A stretch of DNA of 63,923 nt, taken from assembly GCA_024711005.1 (NCBI GenBank), contig JANJTQ010000229.1, forward strand, positions 1-63,923. The letters run 5' to 3'. The notes under the pieces are model-generated. The model worked only from the letters and a program-made list of their open reading frames with translations, made no database searches and was not told the origin of the DNA. Positions 25,208-49,897 of the stretch are shown here, piece after piece. Every line of letters starts with the position of its first letter. The stretch's first letter is position 1. A program made the position numbers and the translations under genes. The DNA is from Opitutaceae bacterium (GTDB lineage Bacteria > Verrucomicrobiota > Verrucomicrobiia > Opitutales > Opitutaceae).

Positions 25208-25297
25208 CAACGCAAAGACGCCAAGGCGCCAAGGTCGCAAAGACCCGGCGCCTTTTTCATGTCTTCTTTGCGTCCTTACCGTCGTTGCGTCTTTGCG
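25208..25297. repeat. Dispersed-type repeat (CGCAAAGACG / CGTCTTTGCG inverted) with terminator
   Basis: CGCAAAGACG at 25211-25220 pairs with CGTCTTTGCG at 25288-25297, around a second GGCGCC / GGCGCC stem (25223-25254) followed by five T residues that should terminate HPr transcription. The outer motif is a low-complexity CGCAAAGACGC sequence of the kind found dispersed in many bacterial genomes. Confidence 0.65.
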
Positions 25298-25302
25298 CTA
25301 GA

Positions 25303-26169
25303 CTAAATTCCGAAAAAAACCCGCGCCGTCTTCGTCGTCACCTCCGCCAACTCCTCCAGACTCACCCCGAACATCGCCGCCGCATACTCCGCGGTGTGAC
25401 GCATAAATCCCGGCTCGTTGGGTTTTCCGCGATGCGGCACGGGTGTGAGATACGGCGCATCCGTCTCCAACATCAGCCGCTCGAGGCCTTGAACCTTCGC
25501 TGCTTCCCGCACGTTCTCGGCGTTCTTATACGTCAGAACCCCGGTGAACGACCCGTAGGCACCGCGTTTTAGCAGTTCGTTCATTTCCGCCGGACCTTCA
25601 CTGAAACAGTGAAACACCACGCGCGTCCAATCCACTCCGCTCGCGTCAATCATCGCCACCGACTCGGCGAACGCGCCGCGTGAATGTACGACCAGCGGAC
25701 AGCTCAACCGCTTCGCGATGACCAACTGCGCGTCGAACGCAGCCCGCTGCCAGGCGAACACCTGCTCCGCCCGCGCCGCATCGTCCTTCGGCAGATGAAA
25801 CCGATCCAATCCGCATTCGCCGAGGGCAACGGGCAGGGAGATCGGCCTCGTGGCATGGGCGTACCGCCCCTGATTCCGAACCTCCGATCCCTCGGACAGA
25901 ATGCGCGTGCCACTTTCCGACCAAAACGCCTCGATCTTTGCGATTTCGTCCGCCCAGTTTTCGCGCACGCAGCAGGGATGCAGCCCGACCGAGTAACGCA
26001 CGCCCGGGTGCGTCGCCGCGAGATCGCGAATCAGCGCCCAATCGTCGCTGTCCGTGCCGATGGAGATCATCTCCGTGACGCCGGCTTCGCGCGAACGCGC
26101 CAGCACCGCGTCAAGCGTACCGGAGCGGGCAAAACCATCGAGATGGGTATGAGTGTCGATCAGGGTCAT
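25303..26169 (-). CDS. tatD: TatD family hydrolase carrying an in-frame palindromic insert
   Basis: A 288-residue TatD/YcfH metal-dependent hydrolase (3'-5' DNase activity in characterised members). Metal ligands: IDTHTHLDGFA (His-x-His), ALGECGLDRF (Glu), PLVVHSRGAF (His), VVFHCFSEG (His), MLETDAPYLTP (Asp). Residues about 86-107 (GTRILSEGSEVRNQGRYAHA) are not part of the family pattern: they correspond to the 64-bp element at 25850-25913 and sit just before the conserved VALGECGLD strand, lengthening the loop between it and the preceding helix. The insert leaves all ligands intact. The start is an ATG at 26169. Confidence 0.93.
   Translation of the reverse strand: MTLIDTHTHLDGFARSGTLDAVLARSREAGVTEMISIGTDSDDWALIRDLAATHPGVRYSVGLHPCCVRENWADEIAKIEAFWSESGTRILSEGSEVRNQGRYAHATRPISLPVALGECGLDRFHLPKDDAARAEQVFAWQRAAFDAQLVIAKRLSCPLVVHSRGAFAESVAMIDASGVDWTRVVFHCFSEGPAEMNELLKRGAYGSFTGVLTYKNAENVREAAKVQGLERLMLETDAPYLTPVPHRGKPNEPGFMRHTAEYAAAMFGVSLEELAEVTTKTARVFFGI
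25850..25913. repeat. 64-bp GTGGC...GCCAC palindromic element inside tatD
   Basis: Ends are GTGGCATGGGC and GCGTGCCAC (inverted). It aligns without gaps over 64 bp with the element in hrpA at 35567-35630, including the shared cores TGATTCCGAA and TCCGATCC. In tatD it is read as peptide GTRILSEGSEVRNQGRYAHA. Confidence 0.88.
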
Positions 26170-26256
26170 GATAAAGGCATTTGATTCCCTCGTTTTCGTA
26201 ATCGCGATCTTCCGTGTTTCACTACGACCTGACGGAAGAGAACAAAGAATCAGACA

Positions 26257-27864
26257 TCAGAGATACAGCGGCGCATACCGTTCCTCCAGGTATCGCAACA
26301 GATACTTCGGCGTGAGTTCCTCGCCCGTTACGCGCCGCACAAGTTCCAAGGTTTCGTAGCGCCGTCCTTGCCGGTGGATACCCGTGCGCAACCAGCCCAG
26401 CAGACGCGAAAAATCCCCTCGCGCGAAGTCGTCCTCAATATCCGGATACGTCTTGAGCGCCGTCGCCCACAACTGCGCGGCGATCATGTTGCCCAGGCAG
26501 TAACTCGGAAAATAACCGAACGCCCCGCCCGACCAGTGCACGTCCTGCAACACGCCCTGGCTGTCCGCCGGCGGTGTGAGCCCGAGCAGTTCCTGCGACA
26601 ACGCATTCCACGCCGCCGGTAGATCGCGCACCTCCAGCTCGCCGGCGAAGAGCCGCCGCTCCAACTCGAAGCGGAGCAGGATATGGAGGTTGTAGTGCAC
26701 CTCGTCGGAATCGACACGGATGAGGGTCGGTGCGACTTCATTGACCGCCAAATAAAGATCGTCCGAGGAAACCGCGGCGAGTTGCGCAGGGAATCGTTCG
26801 CGAAAGCGCGGTTCAAAGAATTTCCAGAACGCTCGACTGCGTGACACTTGGTTTTCCCAAAGGCGGCTCTGCGATTCATGCACGCCCATGCCGGCGTTTT
26901 GACCCAAGGGGGTTCCTTGCGCGGCAAGCGGCAGGCCTTGTTCGTAAAGCCCGTGTCCCGTCTCATGAATCGACGAAAAGAGCGAGTCGAGCGGGTTGTC
27001 GGCGTCGAAGCGCGTAGTCATGCGGATGTCCGCGCCCGAGCCTTCACAAAACGGGTGCAGCGAAACATCGATGCGGCCCCGGCGATAATTGAAGCCGAGA
27101 CGTTCCGTGACGTCGCGAAGAAACGCCCGCTGCGCCTCCACGGGAAAACCTTTGAAAATCCCGTTCTTCGCTCGCACCGGTGACTCGGCGATACGACGCA
27201 CGAGTGGAACCAGACCGGTCTTCAGTTCGGTGAACAACCCGGTGAGCTTCGCCGCGGTCATGCCGGGATCATGTTTATCGATCGCGTAGTCGTAGGCCCG
27301 GTCGGCCCAGCCGAGATAGGCGGCTTCCTGCTTGGCCAACGCGAGGTGCTTTTCCAGAAACGGTGCAAAGGCCACAAAATCGGATTTTCCCTTGGCCGCG
27401 GCCCACGCGTGATAGGCGGCGCTGGAGAGCCGGGCTTTCTCGGCGACGAATTCCGCGGGCAGTTTGACGACCCGATCATAGTCACGCCGGGCCTCACGCA
27501 TGACCACCGCCCGGTCCGCCTGCACCGCCGGTTTGTCACTTATTAAGTGACAAACCGGCTCGACCGTCAGCGACGGGGTCGGGGTGGCTTGGGAGGAACG
27601 CCCCCGATCTTTTGCGTTTTCCAATGGATCGGCGGGCGAAATCCCAAGGCCGCTCTCCAACTCCGTTAGCAGCGTGCCGATTTCCGGATCGGCGGCGGCT
27701 GCGTGCTGGAGTTCGGCGAGGAGCGCAAGTTGCTCGGCGCGCTGGTCGGCGCTGTCGGGAGGGAGGTTCACCTGCTCGTCCCACCCTAGAAGGCCGGCGA
27801 CAGTACTCAGATAGTGGGCTCGTTTAAGTTTTGCGACGAGACGCTCGTAGGAATCGGCAGACAT
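26257..27864 (-). CDS. Carboxypeptidase M32 (Taq type), with in-frame palindromic insert
   Basis: A 535-residue thermostable carboxypeptidase 1 family enzyme, a zinc metalloprotease acting on peptide C-termini in the cytoplasm. The zinc motif is SIHETGHGLYEQGLP (HExxH), and HESQSRLWENQV is the conserved downstream block. Residues about 70-110 (DPLENAKDRGRSSQATPTP through PVCHLISDKPAVQ) fill a region that in the family is a short linker before VREARRDYDR-type sequence. Its core is the palindrome at 27528-27558. The ATG at 27864 is the first sensible start (MSADSYERLVAKLKRA). The downstream tatD gene follows after 87 bp. Confidence 0.93.
   Translation of the reverse strand: MSADSYERLVAKLKRAHYLSTVAGLLGWDEQVNLPPDSADQRAEQLALLAELQHAAAADPEIGTLLTELESGLGISPADPLENAKDRGRSSQATPTPSLTVEPVCHLISDKPAVQADRAVVMREARRDYDRVVKLPAEFVAEKARLSSAAYHAWAAAKGKSDFVAFAPFLEKHLALAKQEAAYLGWADRAYDYAIDKHDPGMTAAKLTGLFTELKTGLVPLVRRIAESPVRAKNGIFKGFPVEAQRAFLRDVTERLGFNYRRGRIDVSLHPFCEGSGADIRMTTRFDADNPLDSLFSSIHETGHGLYEQGLPLAAQGTPLGQNAGMGVHESQSRLWENQVSRSRAFWKFFEPRFRERFPAQLAAVSSDDLYLAVNEVAPTLIRVDSDEVHYNLHILLRFELERRLFAGELEVRDLPAAWNALSQELLGLTPPADSQGVLQDVHWSGGAFGYFPSYCLGNMIAAQLWATALKTYPDIEDDFARGDFSRLLGWLRTGIHRQGRRYETLELVRRVTGEELTPKYLLRYLEERYAPLYL
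27528..27558. repeat. Perfect 31-bp palindrome inside the carboxypeptidase gene
   Basis: Arms CCGGTTTGTCACTTA and TAAGTGACAAACCGG flank a single T, so all 15 bases pair. It holds the same core as the 18821-18841 palindrome and is coding here (peptide PVCHLISDKP, residues about 103-112). Confidence 0.9.
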
Positions 27865-27988
27865 GTGGAAAAGTTTCCATGCAATCACACCGGTCAACCG
27901 GTGCGAAGCGAAGAATCATTCGCCGTAACACAGCTTCATTGGCGCGCCCACTTGGATCGACTCACGCCCCGGGCTGCCCCGAGGATCT

Positions 27989-28975
27989 TTACTCGTTGCC
28001 CTGTTCCGTACGCGCGGAGGGAAACGGTTCCACGCCGCGTAAGATGACATTCCCCCCGCTGGCCCGAGCCACGATGACCGGCCCCCCGCCGTTGAGAGTC
28101 GCTTTCAGGCGGGACCGCCGATCACCGTCGCCGACCACCTTGAGGGGAAGCTCGTCCGCCACGGCCACCTTGCCAAACAGCGAAGAGCGCAAGTTCAGCG
28201 TGCAGGCGCTGTTGGTCTCCAAGACCAAGGACAGGTCGCCACCCGAGAGCATGATATCCGCGGGATGCCTGACCGGTGATACAAAACCCACGCCGGCATC
28301 GGAACCACTGCCGCGGACCACGACCTCGCCACTCGCTTGTTGCAGCTCGATATAACCGCCCCGACTGGAAAGCCGCGTATGGTCCGTCGCTCGTCCCACC
28401 GTGAGGGCGCCCGTCAAGGTGGACGCGATGATCGGACCGGAGGCGGCGGTAATGGCGACCCTGCCGGTGTGGCTGCGGGCGGTAACCGGCCCATTGATCT
28501 CACCCGTAAAAATGTCCCCCGACTCGCTATTGAGCACGACCGAACCTTCCAGCGAACCGATCACAATGCCTCCGGTCAGGGTGTCGACTTGCACGTCGCA
28601 GCGCCGTGGCACCTTGATTTCATAGACCAAACTCACCGGTGCCCACGTATGCCAGGACCACCCCACCCGCTTACGCTGACGCGCAGTCAACGTCACCGCG
28701 CCATTCCGCTGATCCATACTGAGCTCAAGCGAGGCGAGAAGCGCATCCATCGCCGCCTCGGTATCGACCTCCGCCGTTTGAACCACAACCACGTCGATGG
28801 TTTTGCCTTCCGCGACTTCGGTAATGCGCACGGCACCATCAAAGGTATCCACCTTCAGGACTGCATCCATCGGCACATCAAACTGACGCTCAATCCGACG
28901 CTCGATCACCGCAATCGCCGGTACGGTCACAAGCGCCCAAGTTATTGCCAGAAAGTATAAAAATATCCGGGACAT
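27989..28975 (-). CDS. DUF4097-type exported beta-strand repeat protein
   Basis: A 328-residue protein with a Sec signal (IFLYFLAITWALVTVPAIA). Its body is a chain of short beta strands with the DUF4097 pattern: VDTFDGAVRITE, VSLVYEIKVPRRCDVQVDTL, GGIVIGSLEGSVVLNSESGDI, NGPVTARSHTGRVAI, IIASTLTGALTVG and LSSRGGYIELQQASGEVVVRG, the G-x-[IV]-x repeats of a right-handed beta helix. Such proteins are often found in the envelope and sometimes with anti-sigma factors, but none lies here. Function is unknown. No partner gene is obvious; neighbours are on the same strand but separated. Confidence 0.85.
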   Translation of the reverse strand: MSRIFLYFLAITWALVTVPAIAVIERRIERQFDVPMDAVLKVDTFDGAVRITEVAEGKTIDVVVVQTAEVDTEAAMDALLASLELSMDQRNGAVTLTARQRKRVGWSWHTWAPVSLVYEIKVPRRCDVQVDTLTGGIVIGSLEGSVVLNSESGDIFTGEINGPVTARSHTGRVAITAASGPIIASTLTGALTVGRATDHTRLSSRGGYIELQQASGEVVVRGSGSDAGVGFVSPVRHPADIMLSGGDLSLVLETNSACTLNLRSSLFGKVAVADELPLKVVGDGDRRSRLKATLNGGGPVIVARASGGNVILRGVEPFPSARTEQGNE

Positions 28976-29051
28976 AGCGCGAAGTTGGAATAAGCACCTC
29001 CACCTTCAAGCCAGCATTTGGCAAAACCAAATCTCCCGGGACCAAGTCCAA

Positions 29052-29315
29052 TCAGGTCTTCTGCGCATTATTACACACGTAATGCGCCAACGAGCGGTTC
29101 ATTGTATAGGCTTTCAGGGACGCGTCACCGGCCTTGTCGTTGCGCTCGATCAGAAAGCGCGGCGGACGACGGAGGGCGATTTCCTCCTGCTCGGCGGCGG
29201 TTGCGATGAGCAACAATACCTCGGCCCGCGCAGGCAGACGCGCCGCCGGGAAGTTCGCATGCATGGCGAGCCAGCGGAGGGTTTGTTGCAGCGGTGTGGG
29301 AACGGGAGCGGTCAC
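29052..29315 (-). CDS. Small hypothetical protein, 87 aa
   Basis: A reading frame from a GTG at 29315 (TAPVPTPLQQTLRWLAMHAN). The peptide is mixed and has a hydrophobic start to PARAEVLLLIATAAE, then RRPPRFLIERNDKAGD. It lies between the DUF4097 gene and an ArsC-like gene. No Shine-Dalgarno sequence is visible and no family was recognised, so the start and the reality of the gene are uncertain; codon-position GC bias is consistent with coding but the length is short. Confidence 0.4.
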   Translation of the reverse strand: MTAPVPTPLQQTLRWLAMHANFPAARLPARAEVLLLIATAAEQEEIALRRPPRFLIERNDKAGDASLKAYTMNRSLAHYVCNNAQKT

Positions 29316-29424
29316 GCTGCAGACTGTGCAGGAAGAATCCGGCGGGAGTCAACGGGCGGAAGTGAAAAGGCATCAGCCGGAGAAAAGGAGATCGGACGGT
29401 CTTCGTCCCTCCCGTTCTCGGGAC

Positions 29425-29811
29425 TCAAGGTTTCAAGGCCGCCGTCCACGTCTTTTCGTCGAAACCGACCAAGGCCACGCCGTTCACTCCGGAGCCGATC
29501 GCGAAGGGGCGCTTTACCAGATTGCCGTTGCCGGCCAGCAGCGCGAGCGCCTCGGACTCGGTCATCGAGGGAAGCTTATCGCCCAGCTTGAGCGCTCGAT
29601 AGTCCACGCCCGATGTATTGAAAAGTTTGCGCAACGCTCCCGCACCTCCGAGGCGGGCGAGCATCGCGCGCAACTCGGCGGCGGTCGGCGGAGTCTCGCG
29701 AATGGGTTTTTCGTCGAATGCGATCCGATGCGCCCGCAACCACTTCACGGCGCGGCGGCACGTATCGCATTTCGCGTAGGTGTAGACCGTAAGCGTATTC
29801 GTCGTTGTCAT
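29425..29811 (-). CDS. ArsC/Spx-like thioredoxin-fold protein (arsenate reductase family)
   Basis: A 128-residue protein of the ArsC/Spx/MgsR group. The motif YAKCDTCRRAVKWLR is the CxxC start typical of the Spx-like branch rather than the single-Cys ArsC, and PIRETPPTAAELRAMLARL and FNTSGVDYRAL are the later conserved blocks; the LVKRPFAIG segment holds the cis-Pro region. Members include arsenate reductases and redox-sensing transcription partners; which applies here cannot be told. The gene begins immediately after the EEP protein gene (4-bp gap), so both are in one unit. Confidence 0.85.
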   Translation of the reverse strand: MTTTNTLTVYTYAKCDTCRRAVKWLRAHRIAFDEKPIRETPPTAAELRAMLARLGGAGALRKLFNTSGVDYRALKLGDKLPSMTESEALALLAGNGNLVKRPFAIGSGVNGVALVGFDEKTWTAALKP

Positions 29812-29814
29812 ACG

Positions 29815-31335
29815 TTATTTGACCCACTCTTTGGCCTTCACGAGGAACTGCCAATTACCTTTGTAGGTGCCGAGTTCGCCGTAAAACGAGAGTTTCCCGT
29901 CCTGCTCGCGTCGCTGAGTGTAGAGGAGATTTCGAATCTCCTTCCGCGGCCCATAGACATCATAGGTCCCGCCGTGCACTTCGATCTTGAGGAAACGATC
30001 GTCGAGGGCTTTCGCCTCCACGCGGAAAAATTTCCCGGTCCACGTTCCGTCGCGCAGGTCCACGTCCGCGGGCAGATCGGCGAGCACCACGGCGGAAGCG
30101 AAGTCGGTCTTCGACAAATCGACTTTGTTGGCCCGGCCATTTCCGTCGTCTTCGCTCCCCGACTCGCGGGTAAGCGGCATGAATTTGCCCGGCAGGTTGT
30201 CCGCCACGGTCCGAAACCGCGCCAGAATGGGAAAGTGGTCCGAAAAACCGAAACCGCCCTCCCCCTCCTTGGTGTTCCAGCGCACCGGCAGGCCCGCCGG
30301 ATCGGCGTTAAGACCAGGGCGTTTCACCACGGCAAAGGAGTTGTCGACGTACTGCACACCGCGCTGATCGTAGAGGCCGCGCGACACAATGAGGTGCATC
30401 AGCGTGCCCCATTCTCCGCGAAACACATCGCTACCCCGGTCGTCCTCGGGAAGCTCAAACCAAAGGTTGTAGAGGTCGCGCGCCGGACCACGGATCGCGA
30501 GTTCGTTGCCTTGGGATCCGAGAATATCGTTGATCGCGGTGACGGGCATTTTCCGGTATCGGCGCCTTTGATTGTAGTGCGAATTGAGGTCTCCGCCGAC
30601 GAGGATATCGGCATGGGGATCTGCTTCGAGAAGGGCATCGAGCCGCTTGCGGAGCACCCCCGCATTTTCGATGCGGGTCAGCTCCGTCGTCGCGTCAGTC
30701 GCGCCCGATTTCCAATGATTGCCAAACACCGTCAACGGATGGCCCGCCACGTCGAGTTTCACCTCAAGGATGTTGCGCGCCGAACTCGTTGGATGATTGC
30801 GCACGTCGGTGACGGGAAACCGGGTGAAGATCACGCATTTGATCGCCTTCGCCGGCCGGCCGTCATCTTGCAGCACACCGTCGTTGCCGTCGGAGCCGGC
30901 GACCACCGTGTAGCCGGCCATTCCACGATCAGCAAACGCCTTTAACAACAGCGCCTCGGCCGGCAGGTCGCCCACCTCGGTGGTGAAATCGACGCCGAGC
31001 ATTTTATCGATGGTCGTGTTGGTATAACGCCTGAGAATGCCGGTGTAGTCGGGCGGCGTTTTTCCCGGCGTATGATCAATCTCGATCTCCTGAAAAAGAA
31101 TGATGTCGGGCCCGCGGCCTTCCTCCATCCCGGCAACAACCCGCGTAATGTTCACCACCTTGGTCAGCACATGGGCCCGCGTGTAGACTGCCGGCTGAAA
31201 ATCGTCGTAGGCCGCCACGCCGTCCGCGTCGTGCAGATTTTGGACATTGAAGACCAGGACCGTGAACGGCTTTGCCACCAGCCACACCGGAGCCAGAACC
31301 AGCAGGATCAACGTTCCATAAAGCCGCATGCGCAT
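29815..31335 (-). CDS. Secreted endonuclease/exonuclease/phosphatase family protein
   Basis: A 506-residue protein with a signal peptide (LYGTLILLVLAPVWLVAKP) followed by an EEP domain: FTVLVFNVQNLHD, FQEIEIDHTP (Glu ligand), LTVFGNHWKSGATD, DILVGGDLNSHYNQRRRY (Asp-Leu-Asn) and GFSDHFPILARF (final His). Residues about 375-500 form an extra C-terminal domain (VVLADLPADVDLRDGTW) not typical of the core enzyme. Secreted relatives include extracellular nucleases. The ATG at 31335 (MRMRLYG) precedes the signal peptide; a longer frame upstream is less likely. Confidence 0.87.
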   Translation of the reverse strand: MRMRLYGTLILLVLAPVWLVAKPFTVLVFNVQNLHDADGVAAYDDFQPAVYTRAHVLTKVVNITRVVAGMEEGRGPDIILFQEIEIDHTPGKTPPDYTGILRRYTNTTIDKMLGVDFTTEVGDLPAEALLLKAFADRGMAGYTVVAGSDGNDGVLQDDGRPAKAIKCVIFTRFPVTDVRNHPTSSARNILEVKLDVAGHPLTVFGNHWKSGATDATTELTRIENAGVLRKRLDALLEADPHADILVGGDLNSHYNQRRRYRKMPVTAINDILGSQGNELAIRGPARDLYNLWFELPEDDRGSDVFRGEWGTLMHLIVSRGLYDQRGVQYVDNSFAVVKRPGLNADPAGLPVRWNTKEGEGGFGFSDHFPILARFRTVADNLPGKFMPLTRESGSEDDGNGRANKVDLSKTDFASAVVLADLPADVDLRDGTWTGKFFRVEAKALDDRFLKIEVHGGTYDVYGPRKEIRNLLYTQRREQDGKLSFYGELGTYKGNWQFLVKAKEWVK

Positions 31336-31445
31336 ACCCCTGCACAATTCCACGCACAGGTAAAAAGCGAAACCGGTGCGCATGCCGATTTATCTCAACA
31401 GCGGTGTGATTGACGCCCTCTTCTCTTGAACCAAGCGTGCCGCGA

Positions 31446-32246
31446 ATGTCGTCTGCGCGTTCCAGTCTCCCATTGCTCCAAGTCTCCGGCCTCACCGTGA
31501 TGCGAGACCGGACGACGCTGCTCAACAACGTGGGCTGGCGGGTGGAACGGGGCGAACACTGGGTGATCATCGGTCCGAACGGCTGTGGCAAAACCTCGCT
31601 CCTTCGGGCGCTCACCGGCTACCTCACGCCCAGCGCCGGCGAGATTGATCTGCTGGGTGAACGTTACGGCGAGAGCGACTGGCGGGACCTGCGCCTGCAC
31701 GTCGGCCTCGTCACGAGTGCGCTGCAAGCCAGCGTGCCGCCGGACGAACCCGCGCTTGAAACCGTCATCAGTGGCAAATACGCCCAGCTCGATCTCTGGG
31801 TGAAACCACTCGCCGTCGACCGGACGGCCGCGCTCCGACTGTTGCGTCAAAGTGGCGCCGGTGCGTTATCCGACCGGCTGTGGGGCCAGCTTTCCCAAGG
31901 CGAACGTCAGCGTGTGCTCATCGCCCGCGCGCTCATGGCCAAACCGAAGCTTCTCATTCTCGACGAGCCTTGCGCAGGTCTCGACCCGGTGGCCCGGACG
32001 CGGTTTCTCCGCTTCATCACCGAACTCTCCCGGACACCACGCGGACCTGCGCTGGTACTCGTAACCCATCACGTGGAGGAAATCACTCCCGCCTTCACCC
32101 ATGCTCTGGTGTTGAGAGCAGGCGAGGTCATCGACGCCGGACCGGTCGGCGCAACTCTTACCACGCGCACCCTGTCGCGCGCATTCGACGCAAACCTGCG
32201 GCTGACGCGAACGCGCCAAGGGTTTCAGCTCACCGTCCACGCATGA
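31446..32246 (+). CDS. ABC transporter ATP-binding protein
   Basis: A 266-residue ABC ATPase. Walker A is IGPNGCGKTSLLRAL, the signature is WGQLSQGERQRVLIARAL, Walker B is LLILDEPCAGLDPVAR and the H-loop is VLVTHHVEEI. It resembles ModF-type or iron-chelate ATPases with a single nucleotide domain. No permease gene is adjacent: the next gene encodes an exchanger-like membrane protein overlapping by the ATGA junction, which may not be its partner. Start at the ATG (31446) in MSSARSSLPLLQVSGL. Confidence 0.9.
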   Translation: MSSARSSLPLLQVSGLTVMRDRTTLLNNVGWRVERGEHWVIIGPNGCGKTSLLRALTGYLTPSAGEIDLLGERYGESDWRDLRLHVGLVTSALQASVPPDEPALETVISGKYAQLDLWVKPLAVDRTAALRLLRQSGAGALSDRLWGQLSQGERQRVLIARALMAKPKLLILDEPCAGLDPVARTRFLRFITELSRTPRGPALVLVTHHVEEITPAFTHALVLRAGEVIDAGPVGATLTTRTLSRAFDANLRLTRTRQGFQLTVHA

Positions 32247-33265
32247 ACCCGATCCCCGGCTGGTTTTCTCTGTTTGGCCTGGATCATCCCGCGACGTACG
32301 CGGTGCTGTTCCTGGCCACTTCGTTTTTTATTCTCTGGCGGTTGGAAGCCATCATGGATCGCGGCTTCGAGGGGACCGCGCTCGGCACGCTCGTGATGCC
32401 CTTGTGCTCGGGTCTGGGCAACTTGCTCTTCGTCTTCATCGTGGCGCGCAGCGACACACCGGCGCAGGAGGTGATGACCAACGCGCTCGTCAACAACGTC
32501 ACCAATCTCACCCTGCTGCTCGGCCTGCCCGCCATTTTCTGGGGACTGGCCGTCATGCCGGCCGCCACCCCCGCGAAAAGCCCGCGCCGGGGCCGCGCCA
32601 AGGCCGGCGCCGACGGAGACATGCCTCAGCGGATCAATCGCCTCGCGCTCTTCCTCACATTGATCGCGGTGGTGTTCTTCTCCGGTATCACGTGGGCGCT
32701 GGGATCGGACGGCGATCTTGATTTCTCAGACGGCCTCGTGCTCGTGGGACTCTTTGTCTTCTGGCAGAGTTTTCAGGTCTACGACGTGCTCAAACACAAC
32801 GTGCGGAAACGCATCTCGCTCGGCGTGGGCTTTTGGCTGGACGTGCTGCTCGTGCTGCTGGGCGCCGTCGGACTCTTTACCAGTATCGACGAACTGGTGA
32901 CATGGATGACACGCCAGGAAACCGGTTTTTTCCGTGTCGATAATCTCGGCTGGCTGACCGGCTGGCTGATGGTTTTGCCTAATGCACTGCTCGCGTTCTT
33001 TTACGCCGCGCGCAAACGCGCCGAGGTCGTCTATTCATCACAAATCGGCGACGGCCACATCTGCATTCCGCTCGGGATCGGGCTGTTCGCGATCATGAAA
33101 CCACTGCCCATACCGCCTCAGACAGACATGGGACTGACGTTGCTCATGGCGGGCGCTGGACTGCACCTACTCTGCCTGCTTTTCACGGGAGGCCTGCCTC
33201 GCGTCATGGGCTGGGTGCTCGTGGCGGGCTACGCGGTGTTCGTGTTCACCGGCTGGGCCGGGTGA
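32243..33265 (+). CDS. Sodium/calcium exchanger (CaCA) family-like membrane protein
   Basis: A 340-residue protein of about nine or ten transmembrane helices. Two internally related halves are visible: MTNALVNNVTNLTLLLGLP near residue 90 and YSSQIGDGHICIPLGIGLFA near residue 265, the alpha-repeat positions of calcium/cation exchangers, though without the exact Glu consensus of well-studied members. It starts inside the stop of the ABC ATPase gene (ATGA), a coupled pair. Substrate may be Ca2+, Na+ or another cation; the assignment is by repeat pattern, not by biochemistry. Confidence 0.75.
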   Translation: MNPIPGWFSLFGLDHPATYAVLFLATSFFILWRLEAIMDRGFEGTALGTLVMPLCSGLGNLLFVFIVARSDTPAQEVMTNALVNNVTNLTLLLGLPAIFWGLAVMPAATPAKSPRRGRAKAGADGDMPQRINRLALFLTLIAVVFFSGITWALGSDGDLDFSDGLVLVGLFVFWQSFQVYDVLKHNVRKRISLGVGFWLDVLLVLLGAVGLFTSIDELVTWMTRQETGFFRVDNLGWLTGWLMVLPNALLAFFYAARKRAEVVYSSQIGDGHICIPLGIGLFAIMKPLPIPPQTDMGLTLLMAGAGLHLLCLLFTGGLPRVMGWVLVAGYAVFVFTGWAG

Positions 33266-33291
33266 AAAAAAAAGCGCATGGTCTTACCCGA

Positions 33292-33375
33292 GGTAGGGCG
33301 GGACCGCTGGGACCGCCGAGCATGATCAGAGGCATGCGTACGCCGAACCGGACGGCCCGGCGGTCCGTCCCTACC
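33292..33375. repeat. Intergenic 84-bp palindrome (GGTAGGG...CCCTACC)
   Basis: Arm one (33292-33317) begins GGTAGGGCGGGACCGCTGGG; arm two (33349-33375) ends CGGTCCGTCCCTACC. The arms pair with a few mismatches around a 30-nt centre. It lies in the convergent gap between the exchanger and the 142-aa gene and has no T-run of its own. Confidence 0.75.
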
Positions 33376-33388
33376 CGCCTGGCAATCC

Positions 33389-33817
33389 TCACACCAAGGG
33401 GTCGGCGCGAAATCGCTCGCTGAGGCCAAACCAGGCCACCTGCGCCTTGAGCCAATGCGGCCGTGAACGGATTTCCTCCATCGAACGCCCCGTGTGATTG
33501 GCCAGCATGTATGCCGCCGGCCCGATGCGCATCGCCGCGTCATAGGTGTTTCCGTGTGTTCCCGAGCCAAACGTGAAACCGCCCACATCCAACTCTTGCT
33601 TGGCCAGCTCGGCGCGCAACGCCGCGATGTCCTCCGAAAAGGAGGACATATATTCGATCGCTCGCGGACCTTCATAGCGCTGGACCGCACCGCTGCCGTC
33701 GGCGAGCGCAACCAATATCCATTCATCGAAGGCCGGCTCGCCATAAAGCGAGGTCATACGTTTGAAGCAGGAGCGGATTTCCGAGGTGGCGGACTCTAAA
33801 TTCATTGTTGGCTCCAT
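33389..33817 (-). CDS. Conserved hypothetical protein, 142 aa
   Basis: A soluble mixed alpha/beta-looking protein (MNLESATSEIRSCFKRMTSL, YGEPAFDEWILVALADGSGA, YEGPRAIEYMSSFSEDIAAL, FTFGSGTHGNTYDAAMRIG, YMLANHTGRSMEEIRSRPHWL). No enzyme or binding motif is evident. It stands as a single gene between repeats and hrpA; its stop is 14 bp from the palindrome. Family unknown to me. Confidence 0.7.
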   Translation of the reverse strand: MEPTMNLESATSEIRSCFKRMTSLYGEPAFDEWILVALADGSGAVQRYEGPRAIEYMSSFSEDIAALRAELAKQELDVGGFTFGSGTHGNTYDAAMRIGPAAYMLANHTGRSMEEIRSRPHWLKAQVAWFGLSERFRADPLV

Positions 33818-33936
33818 TCAGCCGGGGCCACCTCGTCCGCCAAGCGAAATGACGATTTCACTGCCTTTGTTCAAAGCAGGTTCAATAAATTTTTACCACA
33901 GGACTGACGTGCTCCGGCGTGCCCGGGATTCCTTTC

Positions 33937-36900
33937 TCAGCGTTTAAACAATGCATCAAGCGAACCAAAGCTCTTCAGCGGAGCCTTCGGTTTCGTGGTC
34001 GTCACCGGCAGCGGAGTCGTTTCGCGTGGCTTGGCCGGCTCGGGAGCGGGCGTAGGCGGAACGGCGGACGCCGCGGCGCCCGACTCCCGCCGCCCTCCTT
34101 GTTTTATCTCGGCCAGCGCACGCTCCAGCTTCTGCACCGACACCGGTTCCGCCGTGCCCAGTTCTTGGGCGAACAAGCTCACGCGCAACTCTTCGACCTG
34201 CCAGCGCAACTCCGGCACACCCATGAACACCACCAGCTGTTTCGCGCGCTCGGCATCCTTGAGTTGGTTCTGTTTCCAGCGGTCTGCGCGCAGTTTCATC
34301 GCCTTCAAATAACGCGGGAAATGCGCGAGCCGCTCATAGGGCGTGACACGTAAAAAGTCTTTCGGCACCAGCGCCGCGAGGTCCGGGCCTTGTCCACGAT
34401 AGGGCTGCGGATGCACCAGCAGCGCCTGCCGCAACGTGAGGATTTCGCGCAGCAGATCGACGAGTCGCGGCACCAGTCCCTGCAAGTCGGCCTTGGCCTT
34501 CATGACTGCGGCGGCAAACGCGACCGCCGTAAGGTGCTTCACCCGATCCGCCGCAAGAACCCACCGGCTCACCGAGACATAAGCGTCCTCGCGTAGGGTG
34601 TCCGTCGTACCGATTGTCGCGAGCAACGCACCCAGTTCGCGGAGTTGTTTCAAATCCTTGTGCAGACACGCGAGCGGATGCGTCAATTGCCACTCCAGCA
34701 GACGCGCCAGCGCGGGAGCGTTCGACGCGGCGGCCTCCTCGGGTGTTTTGAAAAGACGCAACAATACGCCGCCACCGGGGCCGTTCTTCAGTCCGGGGTA
34801 GGCATAAACCGCCACACCCGCCTGATCGCACACATGAACGCGCTCGGGCACATCGCCGAATTTCCACTCGGTCTGCTCCGACATTTCGTGCTTGGCGCGG
34901 GCGCGCCGCCAGGCATCCGGATCTTCGCGGGACACGCTCACGCTCGCTTCGCGATGATGCGCCGCGAGCGCTGTCTCAATTTCCGACAACTCGCGACTTG
35001 CACAGATTTCCCGACCTTCATCATCGACGACGCGCACCCGCACTCGCAGGTGATCGGGCAACGGGCGGTCCTCGGCGAACACACTCGGATCGAGTTTCAG
35101 CTTCAGCCGTTCACCGATGAGAATCGCGAGAGTTTCGGGCAGCGTGTGGCGCTGCGCGGTGAGACGTGACTGTTGCGCGGCCGCCTTGGCGAGCTGGCGT
35201 GCGGCATCGGCCAGCGGAACGAAATCACGGCGCAGTTCCTTGGGCAACGCACGCAGGTAATGTTCAACCTTGGCGGCGAGGTGGCCGGGCACCGCCCAAT
35301 CGAGCGCGGCGGGCGTGAGCGCGGCGGCGGTTCCAACGGGCACGTCGAGCGTGACACCGTCATCGACCTGGCCGGGCTTGTAGGCATAGGCGAGCGGAAG
35401 TGCGGTCTGCTGCAACGGCAACGCCTCGGGATACGCCTCGGTGTCGGCCTGCAACTCCTCCGGATCGCGCAGGTCGTCGGCCTCCATCATGAGGAAGCGC
35501 GGCTCGGCAGCTGTGCGCTCCCGCACAAGATCGACGAGCTCGGCGACGGATGAGATGGCTTGGAAAGTGGCACGGGCATCCTGCCCATGATTCCGAATGT
35601 CCGATCCCAGGGGCATCCTGGCCGCGCCACCTTCCGGCAACAACCGCGCCGCATAGAACCGGTAGATTCCTTCGTCGAGATTGAGGTATCCGCGGTCGCG
35701 AGTGCGCGTGAGCAGGTTCTCGATCTCTTCGCGCACCGCCCGGTTGTGCGCGATGAAATCCAACGGCCAGGTAACGGTGTCATTGACCAGGCCCTCGCGG
35801 ATAAAAATCTCCGTCGCATGCACCGGATCGATCTTGCCGTAACTCACGGCGCGCGACTCCAGTTCAAGTCCGTAAAGCCGCGTTCGCTGCTTCACCATCA
35901 CGCGGCCGGCGTCCTGATTCCAGAAGGGCTCGCTGTGCGCGACCCTCGCGATGTGCGCACCGAGATCGAGCGCCCAAAGCGGATCGAGCCGCGCCGATGT
36001 GCGAGCGAAAAGACGCGACGTTTCCATGATCTCGGCCGACATGATCCACCTGGGCGCCTTGCCCTCCTTCCGAGGTGGACGGTGACCTCCGGGCGCGTTT
36101 TTTTTCTTCGGCTCGTCGCGCACAAACAGCACCGACCCCGGGAACAACGTCACTCGACGATCATGCGTCGCCTTGTAACCGCCATTCTCGTCGTCCCGCA
36201 CCGCGATGTTGCCCAACAGGCCGGCGAGAATGCTCCGATGAATCGCCCGGTAGGCCGGCGAGGCGAAGGCGGTCTTGTCGTCATTGATCTTGTCCGGCGG
36301 CAGCCCATCGAACACCGACGTCAGCTGAAAATCCTTCCGCTGCTCCATCACATCGAGCAACTGGGAATGCACGTCGCGCCACTCACGCATGCGCGTGTAA
36401 CTCAAAAAATGCTCTTTGCAGAAACGGCGCAGCTTCGCCTGCGAGAGGCGCTCGAATTCGTCGTGAAACGCATCCCAGATATTGAGCAACGACAGGAAAT
36501 CCGAATCCCGATGATTGAATCGACGGTGTGCCGCATCCGCTTTCTCCCGCGCGTCCATCGGACGTTCGCGCGGGTCCTGGATACTCAGGCCCGACGCGAT
36601 CACGAGCACCTCGCGCAGGGCTTTCTCTGTGCGCGCCTGCAAGATCATCCGACCGACGGTCGGGTCGACCGGGAGGCGGGCAAGTTCGCGACCGATCGGA
36701 GTGAGCTCGCGCAGGTAGGGCGAGGCATCCCCGCCGGGCCGCGCCTCATCGGACCGGTTCGCCCTGCCTTCGGCCAGAGCACCGATCTCCTCCAACAACG
36801 CATAGCCTGCGCGAATGGACTTCGCCGCCGGCATGTTGATGAAGGGGAACCGTTCGATATCGCCGAGGCCGAAGGCCTTCATGCGCAAAATGACGTCCGC

Positions 36901-38139
36901 CAGGTTGGCGCGTTGAATCTCGGGCTGGGTGAAGCGCGAACGCTCGTTGTAATCTTTTTCCGAATACAGACGGATGCACACGCCGTCGGACACGCGGCCG
37001 GCTCGACCTTTGCGTTGATCGGCGCTGGATTGGGCGACCGCCTCGATGGGCAGGCGACGCGTGCGGGCTTGCGGCGAGTAGCGACTGATGCGCGCCAGTC
37101 CGGTGTCCACCACGTAGCGAATGCCGGGAATCGTCAGCGACGTTTCGGCAATGTTGGTCGCGAGGATCAGTTTGCGGCGTTGCGACGTGGCGAAAACGCG
37201 TTGTTGCTCGGCATTGGAAAGGCGGCCGAAAAGCGGGACGACCTCGGTGTTCGGCAGGCGGCGGCCCTCGAGGAGTTCGCGGGTTTCGCGTATGTCCCGT
37301 TCGGCCGGCATGAAGACGAGGATGTCGCCGGAGTCGCTCTCGCGAACGATGCGTTCGACCGCCTCGACCGCGCCATCGATGTAATGCAACGCCTCGGATT
37401 TCGCGGAGCCCTCATCGCCTTCGGCGGCATCGCTGCCGAACTCATCGAGCGGAGCATAGATCACCTCGACCGGATATGTGCGGCCGGACACCTCGACGAC
37501 CGGAGCACCGTCGAAGGCCTTGGAAAAGGCCTCGGTGTCGATCGTGGCCGAAGTGACGATGATCTTAAGCTCGGGACGCTTGTGACGCAGCGTGCGCAGG
37601 TGTCCGAGGAGGAAATCGATGTTGAGCGAACGCTCGTGCGCTTCATCCAGAATGACGGTGTCGTAGGCACGAAGCATCGGGTCGCTCTGCACCTCGGCGA
37701 GCAGCATACCGTCGGTCATGAACTTGATGACGGTGTTGCGCGAGGTGCGGTCGTCGAAACGGATTTTGCAGCCGACGGGTCCACCCCACTCGACATTCAA
37801 TTCCTCGGCGACGCGGCGTGAAACCGACAACGCGGCGACGCGACGGGGTTGGGTACAGGCGATCAGTCCTCGGCGCCCGCGACCGGCGGCGAGACACATC
37901 TTCGGAATTTGCGTGGTTTTGCCGGAGCCGGTTTCGCCTGCCAGGATGATGACTTGTTCGGCCGCAATCAGGTCCACGATTTCCCCGGCGCGACTGCTGA
38001 TGGGCAGTTCGGGTGGAAAATCGATACGGAAAGCGGGCAAAACGGTGTCGTCGGAACGGGCCACGAGGAAAAGAGGCGGCACCGTGGCACCGAAGCCGCG
38101 CGCTCGCGAGGGGTTTTTTACACCAACTCCGTCAGACAC
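33937..38139 (-). CDS. hrpA: ATP-dependent RNA helicase HrpA with two in-frame palindromic inserts
   Basis: A 1400-residue DEAH-box helicase. Walker A GETGSGKTTQIPK (about 67-80), QPRRVAALSVSRRVAEE, VILDEAHERSLN (about 165), SATID, and the motif VI region QRKGRAGRVSDG are all present; HA2 and OB-fold regions follow, and the long C-terminal half (LAKAAAQQSRLTAQ, KDFLRVTPYERLAHFPRYLKA) is the HrpA-specific DUF3418. Two stretches do not match the family: residues about 458-475 (EGRANRSDEARPGGDASPYL) from the 36714-36768 repeat, and about 837-858 (MPLGSDIRNHGQDARATFQ) from the 35567-35630 element. The GTG at 38139 is the earliest start; a later one is possible. Confidence 0.95.
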   Translation of the reverse strand: MSDGVGVKNPSRARGFGATVPPLFLVARSDDTVLPAFRIDFPPELPISSRAGEIVDLIAAEQVIILAGETGSGKTTQIPKMCLAAGRGRRGLIACTQPRRVAALSVSRRVAEELNVEWGGPVGCKIRFDDRTSRNTVIKFMTDGMLLAEVQSDPMLRAYDTVILDEAHERSLNIDFLLGHLRTLRHKRPELKIIVTSATIDTEAFSKAFDGAPVVEVSGRTYPVEVIYAPLDEFGSDAAEGDEGSAKSEALHYIDGAVEAVERIVRESDSGDILVFMPAERDIRETRELLEGRRLPNTEVVPLFGRLSNAEQQRVFATSQRRKLILATNIAETSLTIPGIRYVVDTGLARISRYSPQARTRRLPIEAVAQSSADQRKGRAGRVSDGVCIRLYSEKDYNERSRFTQPEIQRANLADVILRMKAFGLGDIERFPFINMPAAKSIRAGYALLEEIGALAEGRANRSDEARPGGDASPYLRELTPIGRELARLPVDPTVGRMILQARTEKALREVLVIASGLSIQDPRERPMDAREKADAAHRRFNHRDSDFLSLLNIWDAFHDEFERLSQAKLRRFCKEHFLSYTRMREWRDVHSQLLDVMEQRKDFQLTSVFDGLPPDKINDDKTAFASPAYRAIHRSILAGLLGNIAVRDDENGGYKATHDRRVTLFPGSVLFVRDEPKKKNAPGGHRPPRKEGKAPRWIMSAEIMETSRLFARTSARLDPLWALDLGAHIARVAHSEPFWNQDAGRVMVKQRTRLYGLELESRAVSYGKIDPVHATEIFIREGLVNDTVTWPLDFIAHNRAVREEIENLLTRTRDRGYLNLDEGIYRFYAARLLPEGGAARMPLGSDIRNHGQDARATFQAISSVAELVDLVRERTAAEPRFLMMEADDLRDPEELQADTEAYPEALPLQQTALPLAYAYKPGQVDDGVTLDVPVGTAAALTPAALDWAVPGHLAAKVEHYLRALPKELRRDFVPLADAARQLAKAAAQQSRLTAQRHTLPETLAILIGERLKLKLDPSVFAEDRPLPDHLRVRVRVVDDEGREICASRELSEIETALAAHHREASVSVSREDPDAWRRARAKHEMSEQTEWKFGDVPERVHVCDQAGVAVYAYPGLKNGPGGGVLLRLFKTPEEAAASNAPALARLLEWQLTHPLACLHKDLKQLRELGALLATIGTTDTLREDAYVSVSRWVLAADRVKHLTAVAFAAAVMKAKADLQGLVPRLVDLLREILTLRQALLVHPQPYRGQGPDLAALVPKDFLRVTPYERLAHFPRYLKAMKLRADRWKQNQLKDAERAKQLVVFMGVPELRWQVEELRVSLFAQELGTAEPVSVQKLERALAEIKQGGRRESGAAASAVPPTPAPEPAKPRETTPLPVTTTKPKAPLKSFGSLDALFKR
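35567..35630. repeat. 64-bp GTGGC...GCCAC palindromic element inside hrpA
   Basis: Ends GTGGCACGGGC and GCGCCAC; contains TGATTCCGAA, TCCGATCC and two copies of a GGGCATCCTG motif. It aligns gaplessly with the tatD copy and is read in the same frame (GSDIRNHG here against GSEVRNQG in tatD). Confidence 0.9.
36714..36768. repeat. 55-bp GGTAGGGCGAGGC palindromic element inside hrpA
   Basis: The arm GGTAGGGCGAGGC at 36714 is inverted as GGTTCGCCCTGCC at 36756-36768. The 28-base head (beginning GGTAGGGCGAGGCATCCCCG) is repeated nearly unchanged at 49870 in an intergenic site. In hrpA it is read as about 18 residues. Confidence 0.85.
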
Positions 38140-49869: not shown

Positions 49870-49897
49870 GGTAGGGCGAGGCGTCCCACCGAGCCGC
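49870..49897. repeat. Second copy of the GGTAGGGCGAGGC element (intergenic)
   Basis: The 28 bases starting GGTAGGGCGAGGCGTCCCAC differ at a few positions from the head of the element in hrpA at 36714. It lies between the SGNH-like gene and the end of purK. Confidence 0.75.

Follow-up and report, generated by a model that had tools for sequence, protein, structure and literature searches.

Paired REP hairpins in frame within tatD and hrpA of an Opitutaceae bacterium, and transposase genes that appear to lie in frame within housekeeping genes of its relatives

REP dimers in tatD and hrpA and the family to which they belong

The window analysed here is a 63,923-nucleotide stretch of an Opitutaceae bacterium (contig JANJTQ010000229.1 of assembly GCA_024711005.1), in which two genes on the minus strand each carry, in frame, a dimer of a repetitive extragenic palindromic (REP) sequence. 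The tatD gene (25303..26169) encodes a TatD family DNA exonuclease of 288 amino acids (aa) and hosts element 1 (25850..25913, minus strand), which runs from GTGGC to GCCAC and is read as residues ~85-107. The hrpA gene (33937..38139) encodes the 1400-aa ATP-dependent RNA helicase HrpA and contains two inserts, one of which is element 2 (35567..35630, minus strand; residues ~836-858). An original prediction, made from the sequence alone, had described two gapless 64-bp copies at these positions, and was found to be exact in coordinates, length and alignment, with 48 of the 64 bases identical and with GTGGC at the start and GCCAC at the end of both. Along its own strand of the window, the hrpA copy had no other gapless match above 34/64, and two occurrences of the core GATTCCGAA-N(1-3)-TCCGATC were counted in the window, as against no occurrence in 100 shuffles. 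The peptides GSEVRNQG (TatD) and GSDIRNHG (HrpA) were recovered from the minus strand in the same frame, and both host genes remained open, as had been proposed: TatD scored 208.8 bits against TIGR00010 (cut-off 206) and HrpA 1197.8 bits against TIGR01967 (cut-off 722.75; both NCBIfam), and the stretch is absent from close relatives.

Both elements consist of GTGGC, a hairpin (GGGC..GCCC), a spacer, an inverted hairpin and GCCAC, the palindrome GTGGCAYGGGCRTCCYGCCCRTG being present twice in inverted order such that the two REPs face each other. Two inverted REPs separated by a spacer, the arrangement that defines a REPIN (REP doublet forming hairpins), were therefore found in both, and 64 bp is no fixed element length, the unit being the two inverted REPs plus the spacer. 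The second arm of each REP has decayed, and the best-kept arm within the window is GTGGCACGGGCATCCTGCCCATG (35567..35589, plus strand), which forms part of element 2. An AlphaFold2 model of TatD built from 34 sequences had a mean predicted local distance difference test score of 90.5, falling below 50 at residues 88-105, and the insert is thus predicted to form a disordered loop between a helix and a core strand.

The search for further copies that had been suggested was performed across the genome (5.0 Mb in 351 contigs) with a 19-base REP pattern and up to 3 mismatches, and yielded 52 forward and 47 reverse matches, 99 in total, as against 3 + 1 = 4 for the same pattern reversed; further copies therefore exist. 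Alignment of 74 REPs revealed GTGG followed by GGGC..GCCC, a preference for A or G at the three bases immediately 5' of GTGG, and a conserved RTG after the searched pattern, beyond which the sequence was not conserved; as the pattern itself contained GTGG (with up to 2 mismatches), conservation inside it is partly by construction. GTGG was carried by both window elements and by the 30 genome copies displayed, many of which formed inverted pairs, and some copies were located at contig ends, as is usual for repeats. Counts of dimer orientation at 6 mismatches were unreliable, the REP itself being palindromic, and were not used. On direct reading the REP consensus was open in all six frames. A terminal GTGG beside a short stem-loop, a high dispersed copy number and, in relatives, an association with REP-associated tyrosine transposases (RAYTs), the features of the GTAG-REP superfamily, were all observed, and GTAG variants of the REP occur in relatives. 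We assign the family to the GTAG-type REPs, with GTGG as its tag; its members often occur as REPIN-like inverted pairs.

Among 54 elements collected from stretches of this genome, 13 had no spanning open reading frame (ORF) of 100 aa. Of 29 listed spanning ORFs of at least 200 aa, 20 were scanned with Pfam, and nine of these scored above cut-off. Pfam domains surrounded the element in six genes, namely those of an SNF2 protein (single REP), a GH38 mannosidase, RapA, an ABC transporter, a ThiF-rhodanese protein and MenC, and in a seventh host, the isochorismate synthase gene, host sequence on both sides was shown by congeners. A LacI family match (L259) was dropped, having a single arm with 2 mismatches, and a helicase (L248) with known domains on one side of the element only was left out of the count. 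Together with tatD and hrpA, at least nine of the 54 elements thus lie in frame in recognisable genes, which is a lower bound.

The insertion sites were compared with those of relatives. Four aligned congeneric TatD proteins, all of 265 aa, lacked the stretch, leaving a gap of 24 codons, and the tatD site was thus empty in all four congeners. Of the 11 congeners with sequence across the hrpA site, 10 had no such insert (a few loops being some residues longer), and in the eleventh, G152, this loop held a REP array that differs from element 2 and is longer. In the G152 loop (L112 / L115), approximately 70 residues of REP-derived peptide end in GSTDRNHGRDAHAT, much like GSDIRNHGQDARAT in the genome studied here. 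It had been argued that, with 64 not being a multiple of three, a target duplication must have restored the frame; the tatD insertion, however, comprises 24 codons (72 nt) relative to congeners, and such a duplication is therefore not required. No target-site duplication was visible against the empty congener sites of tatD and hrpA, although the divergence of the flanks leaves room for one. Target duplications are not known from RAYTs of the HUH/Y1 class.

The TatD loop was also followed across the family. In the 74 of 90 TatD loci that could be parsed (the 16 others were dropped), the loop was short (up to 9 aa) in 42 and long (14-62 aa) in 31, with a single locus at 12 aa; the 31 long loops comprise 28 distinct sequences. 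Loops of at least 14 aa were present in 23 of 34 parsed loci of a first set, a sample enriched for inserts since 30 of its loci were the best matches to an insert-bearing query, and in 8 of 40 parsed loci of a less biased set (51 supplied, L147-L197 of 58). Folding of the 31 long loops gave a mean z of -3.3, with 16 loops below -2, as compared with an average of +0.1 and no mean below -2 in 31 for control windows of the same genes, the shuffles preserving base but not dinucleotide content. By eye, the inserts derive from five or more REP sequences, which end in GTAG or GTGG; the insert of G043 matches REPs flanking a RAYT gene on both sides, and that of G073 matches DNA 55-80 bases upstream of menF. 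Across many Opitutaceae the TatD loop is occupied by inserts that differ from one another and are often palindromic.

RAYT genes within menF, alaS and other host genes of relatives

The REP of the window was present in 39 of 150 family genomes, with a maximum of 213 matches in one. Genes with a Y1_Tnp domain and this REP on both sides were found in G152 (same genus), G080, G024, G005 and G060, and in all five a single stop-free frame ran from the start of isochorismate synthase (menF) through REPs, the RAYT and further REPs to the end of isochorismate synthase. The menF loci comprised the best 30 of 197 matching genomes (of 200) together with 13 genomes picked for split or weak matches, and gave 39 distinct linkers with both halves of the enzyme. 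In 34 of these the linker was 20-41 aa long (20-24 aa in six congeners, and 40 aa, including a REP dimer, in the genome studied here), and in the remaining five, each from a different genus, it measured 256-374 aa and contained the RAYT (G152, G060, G024, G080, G005). A sixth menF RAYT (G217) was cut by a contig end. No intact second menF was seen in the five RAYT genomes, where the other matches were paralogues with 30-37% identity and, in G060, also two pieces of 32-36 aa with 56%.

The REP dimer in the menF gene of the genome studied here retains one intact arm, GTGGCATGGGCTTCCAGCCCATG, which was the sole exact copy of this variant in 354 kb of scanned stretches of that genome (overlaps counted twice, stretches chosen for REPs). 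G080 and G005 have the same variant next to their menF RAYT. We favour the reading that the dimer in the genome studied here was left behind when a RAYT was lost, with independent insertion of a REPIN as a possible but less favoured alternative.

A profile built from the five menF RAYTs matched 136 of 252 family genomes at 1e-10, and further hosts were sought only among listed matches with unusually long frames, such that the counts are minima. RAYTs were located in frame in alanyl-tRNA synthetase (AlaRS; alaS) in G080, G027, G093 and G054 (a further copy in G002 being cut by a contig end), in an Eco57I-type methylase in G105, in a creatininase-like protein in G051 and G002, and in a Cas_NE0113/adenosine deaminase protein in G036. 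A RAYT lay at the end of the frame of a type I restriction subunit in G103, and in G007 the frame of a similar methylase-like gene ended soon after the RAYT and had no host-domain match. Host sequence was thus present on both sides of the RAYT in at least 13 cases (menF 5, alaS 4, creatininase 2, methylase 1, deaminase 1), and four cases were partial. In G103, 42 Y1_Tnp matches were recorded, many in frames of ~340-380 aa, which resembles a burst of another type of Y1 transposase.

The alaS RAYTs are flanked by another REP-like sequence (SARVPRAA...) and not by the window REP. Insert-free AlaRS loops measured 14-24 aa (15 parsed of the 20 best-scoring loci) and the RAYT inserts 194-222 aa. Each of the five alaS-RAYT genomes had exactly two matches to the AlaRS model, the best with E values of 1e-132 to 1e-138, as compared with 1e-167 to 1e-182 for the listed AlaRS rows, nearly all full-length; with two weaker matches per genome, no intact second AlaRS was seen (match coordinates were not listed). 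Exactly two AlaRS matches with a best E of 1e-104 to 1e-147 were counted in 47 of 236 family genomes, five of which were traced to a RAYT; in the other 42, this loop may likewise contain a REP or a RAYT, or the gene may be split by a contig end.

As expected of RAYTs, the motif NHVH and a tyrosine of the Y..NP type were found in the five aligned menF RAYTs, and DHVH with YI..NP in four alaS RAYTs. Y1_Tnp scored above the Pfam cut-off of 23 in 12 of 13 RAYT-bearing frames, and NF047646 (REP_Tyr_transpos) matched all nine frames scanned at 38-78 bits, below its cut-off of 80. No Hint or intein model was among the matches listed for 13 frames (Pfam) and nine frames (NCBIfam; for one of these, 25 of 28 matches).

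The ratio of nonsynonymous to synonymous differences per site (pN/pS) in the RAYT segments was 0.26-0.42 in 10 menF pairs and 0.21-0.39 in six alaS pairs, inside or close to what the host flanks show; these values were obtained without an unconstrained control sequence, and silent sites were near saturation in the menF RAYTs. As judged from these comparisons, RAYT and host both look constrained. In a tree of 44 RAYTs, the menF copies formed one group (six rows, 98/90), and so did the alaS copies (four rows, 100/100), although on a long branch; the two methylase copies grouped together, as did the two creatininase copies. The pattern fits either an ancient insertion that was lost many times or repeated entry at specific sites. 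Despite there being one group per host gene, vertical descent and repeated entry are both plausible, given the sparse distribution and a silent divergence that is higher in the RAYT than in menF, a comparison confounded by the lower G+C content of the RAYT at third codon positions.

Origin of the inserts and relation to known systems

With a multi-copy family of inverted-pair anatomy, in-frame insertion, sites empty in relatives and RAYTs flanked by the same REP all observed, the tatD and hrpA elements are very probably GTGG-ended REP dimers of the GTAG-REP superfamily (mobile but non-autonomous hairpins that resemble REPINs), which were copied by a RAYT, kept the reading frame and occupy tolerated loops. 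The copies were presumably moved in by a RAYT of the HUH/Y1 type at lengths that keep the frame. As the consensus is open in six frames and the dimer spacers vary in length, a share of insertions will be readable, and selection would retain those landing in surface loops, where the added peptide is probably a tolerated loop without function. Several results weigh against this account. Movement of the element was not observed, and single-strand folding of the window copies surpassed that of shuffles by no more than a modest margin (z -1.8 for hrpA; z -2.5 for tatD, taken as a 72-nt element and folded as DNA). Fifteen of the 31 long TatD loops do not reach z < -2, the loop of the genome studied here among them at z -0.5, and a second copy of the TatD insert in a small amount of same-genome sequence was found in two of 11 cases and not in nine (one of which has no long insert). 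The associated transposase for which a search had been suggested was found in relatives, with the same REP on both sides, but not in the genome studied here, where both Y1_Tnp genes lack the REP within 3 mismatches, although with 351 contigs this absence is uncertain; the menF-type RAYT profile likewise had no match there at 1e-10. Probably no RAYT of this clade is left in that genome.

The likeness to Rickettsia palindromic elements (RPEs) that had been noted holds as far as a multi-copy palindrome has entered functional genes in frame, with relatives lacking it at those sites, but the element itself is a REP dimer. It was also possible that the elements are members or direct relatives of the RPEs, with a palindrome specialised for insertion into proteins. 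RPEs are likewise in-frame palindromes in unrelated genes, and Di Nocera et al. 2013 (PMC3733652) equate RPE-4 and RPE-6 with CGTC REPs. The ends seen here, however, are GTGG or GTAG and not CGTC (a separation made by description), the 13 elements without a spanning ORF indicate that copies outside genes exist, and this REP flanks RAYT genes, whereas CGTC repeats are described there as unassociated with transposase genes. Membership among the RPEs is thus very improbable. That both stretches are ancestral protein sequence, alike by chance or codon bias, can hardly be credited: tatD and hrpA are GC-rich and both loops vary among relatives, but the 48/64 identity against a next best 34/64, the 99 REP matches and the empty sites in close relatives contradict it. 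If, instead, the added peptide were kept for a function such as enzyme regulation or partner interaction, this would explain why the same TatD loop is filled in many genera and why replication and repair genes are stressed among hosts in PMC3733652, the hosts here including tatD, hrpA, rapA and an SNF2 gene. As the TatD-site inserts are different REP sequences with unrelated peptides (by eye), and the insert is modelled as a low-confidence disordered loop, an adaptive role is improbable, and a tolerated REP dimer is preferred.

In menF and alaS of the relatives, the RAYT reads, as far as sequence can indicate, like a domain placed within the host protein. We lean, by a little over even odds, to the reading that the REP-RAYT-REP unit of Opitutaceae lives in frame within sole-copy housekeeping genes. 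The RAYT, having no stop codon of its own, would be translated as a domain inside the host enzyme, and selection on the host gene would also protect the transposase frame from stops and frameshifts. Recombination between the flanking REPs would then remove the RAYT and leave an in-frame REP scar, such as that in menF of the genome studied here. Alternatively, the RAYT may have split or killed menF or alaS, the open frame being a by-product of high GC content. Long chance frames are common at this GC content, several around RAYTs read as antisense junk, and the methylase-like frame of G007 stops soon after the RAYT. Against this, host sequence resumes in frame after the RAYT in 13 cases from five unrelated genes, the host flanks evolve under constraint, and no uninterrupted AlaRS match was found in the five alaS-RAYT genomes, all of which makes a dead host gene unlikely.

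Opitutus terrae belongs to the same bacterial family as the genome studied here. It had been stated that no equivalent was described in this lineage; this was not the case, as intragenic GTAG REPs, with GTAG-20 mostly GTGG-ended, were described in O. terrae by Di Nocera et al. 2013 (PMC3733652). These share with the present family the hairpin REP, the GTAG-type tag, the dimers and the intragenic copies; inserts of dimers or groups add 20-30 aa across species, RNA helicase genes are among the O. terrae hosts, and in two Xanthomonas species recB carries REPs at nearly the same position. The sections consulted make no mention of transposases in frame within genes or of a TatD loop. The element finding, as first given, is therefore a correctly seen case of a described kind, and the window elements alone are a further case of a described phenomenon. 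The REPIN/RAYT system (PMC3116915, PMC8049555) agrees in its inverted REPs with spacer, its non-autonomous elements and an HUH/Y1 RAYT with the same REP. In the model given in PMC8049555, however, a REPIN copied into a gene destroys it, whereas here copies, and in relatives even the RAYT, lie in frame in functional-looking genes. RPEs, in the descriptions of PMC10969869 and PMC3733652, are similarly mobile and palindromic and supply unrelated proteins with an extra peptide but, compared by description, are ~150 bp long and fall into ten families (PMC10969869), with another tag (PMC3733652).

The in-frame RAYT of the relatives, as read from the genomes, is the part that would surprise a specialist. 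Inteins are selfish enzymes inside a host gene that stays functional. IStrons (PMC4227781) are alike in that a selfish enzyme lies within a working host gene. Unlike inteins, the scanned RAYT fusions matched no splicing domain, no search for ribozymes having been made, and the RAYT seems to remain part of the protein. No report of RAYTs in frame inside genes was found in the literature covered, including the portions consulted of PMC6006769, PMC2817692, PMC8049555 and PMC10969869, most subscription papers and all preprints falling outside the search. The analysis adds that, in several genera, the transposase behind such elements appears to ride in frame within housekeeping genes of which no other copy is apparent. 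If true at the protein level, this would be a new way for a host to shelter a selfish enzyme, and such intein-like shelter without splicing would help to explain the persistence of single-copy RAYTs; the idea is open to ordinary complementation and transposition assays.

Further repeats in the window and the genome

Two genes of the genome studied here were considered as a source of the elements and rejected, both being without this REP. L061, a 319-aa frame with Y1_Tnp, is bounded by another inverted repeat (by eye), and L062 (G000:C219, Y1_Tnp) is decayed and lies beside another palindrome (by eye). The palindrome family adjoining the decayed RAYT of L062, GTAGGCCGCGAGCTTGCTCGCG / CGCCTGCAAGCAGGCGGCCTAC, is perhaps its own REP.

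The second insert in hrpA (36712..36768, minus strand) is also in frame and REP-like but of another family, encodes the peptide GRANRSDEARPGGDASPYL and was lacking in all 11 congeners with HrpA sequence across the site. It reads GTAGGGCGAGGC from 36715 on the plus strand, lies ~380 residues earlier in the protein than element 2, and contains an exact GTAGGGCGAG, a 10-mer that alone was not above chance in the window. Between two ORFs at 49871-49889 (plus strand), GTAGGGCGAGGCGTCCCAC is perhaps a copy or half copy of this second REP family. Downstream of tatD, at 25212-25300, GCAAAGACGCCAAGG occurs together with an inverted GCGTCTTTGCG; this stretch resembles one in L062 and may represent another dispersed palindrome.

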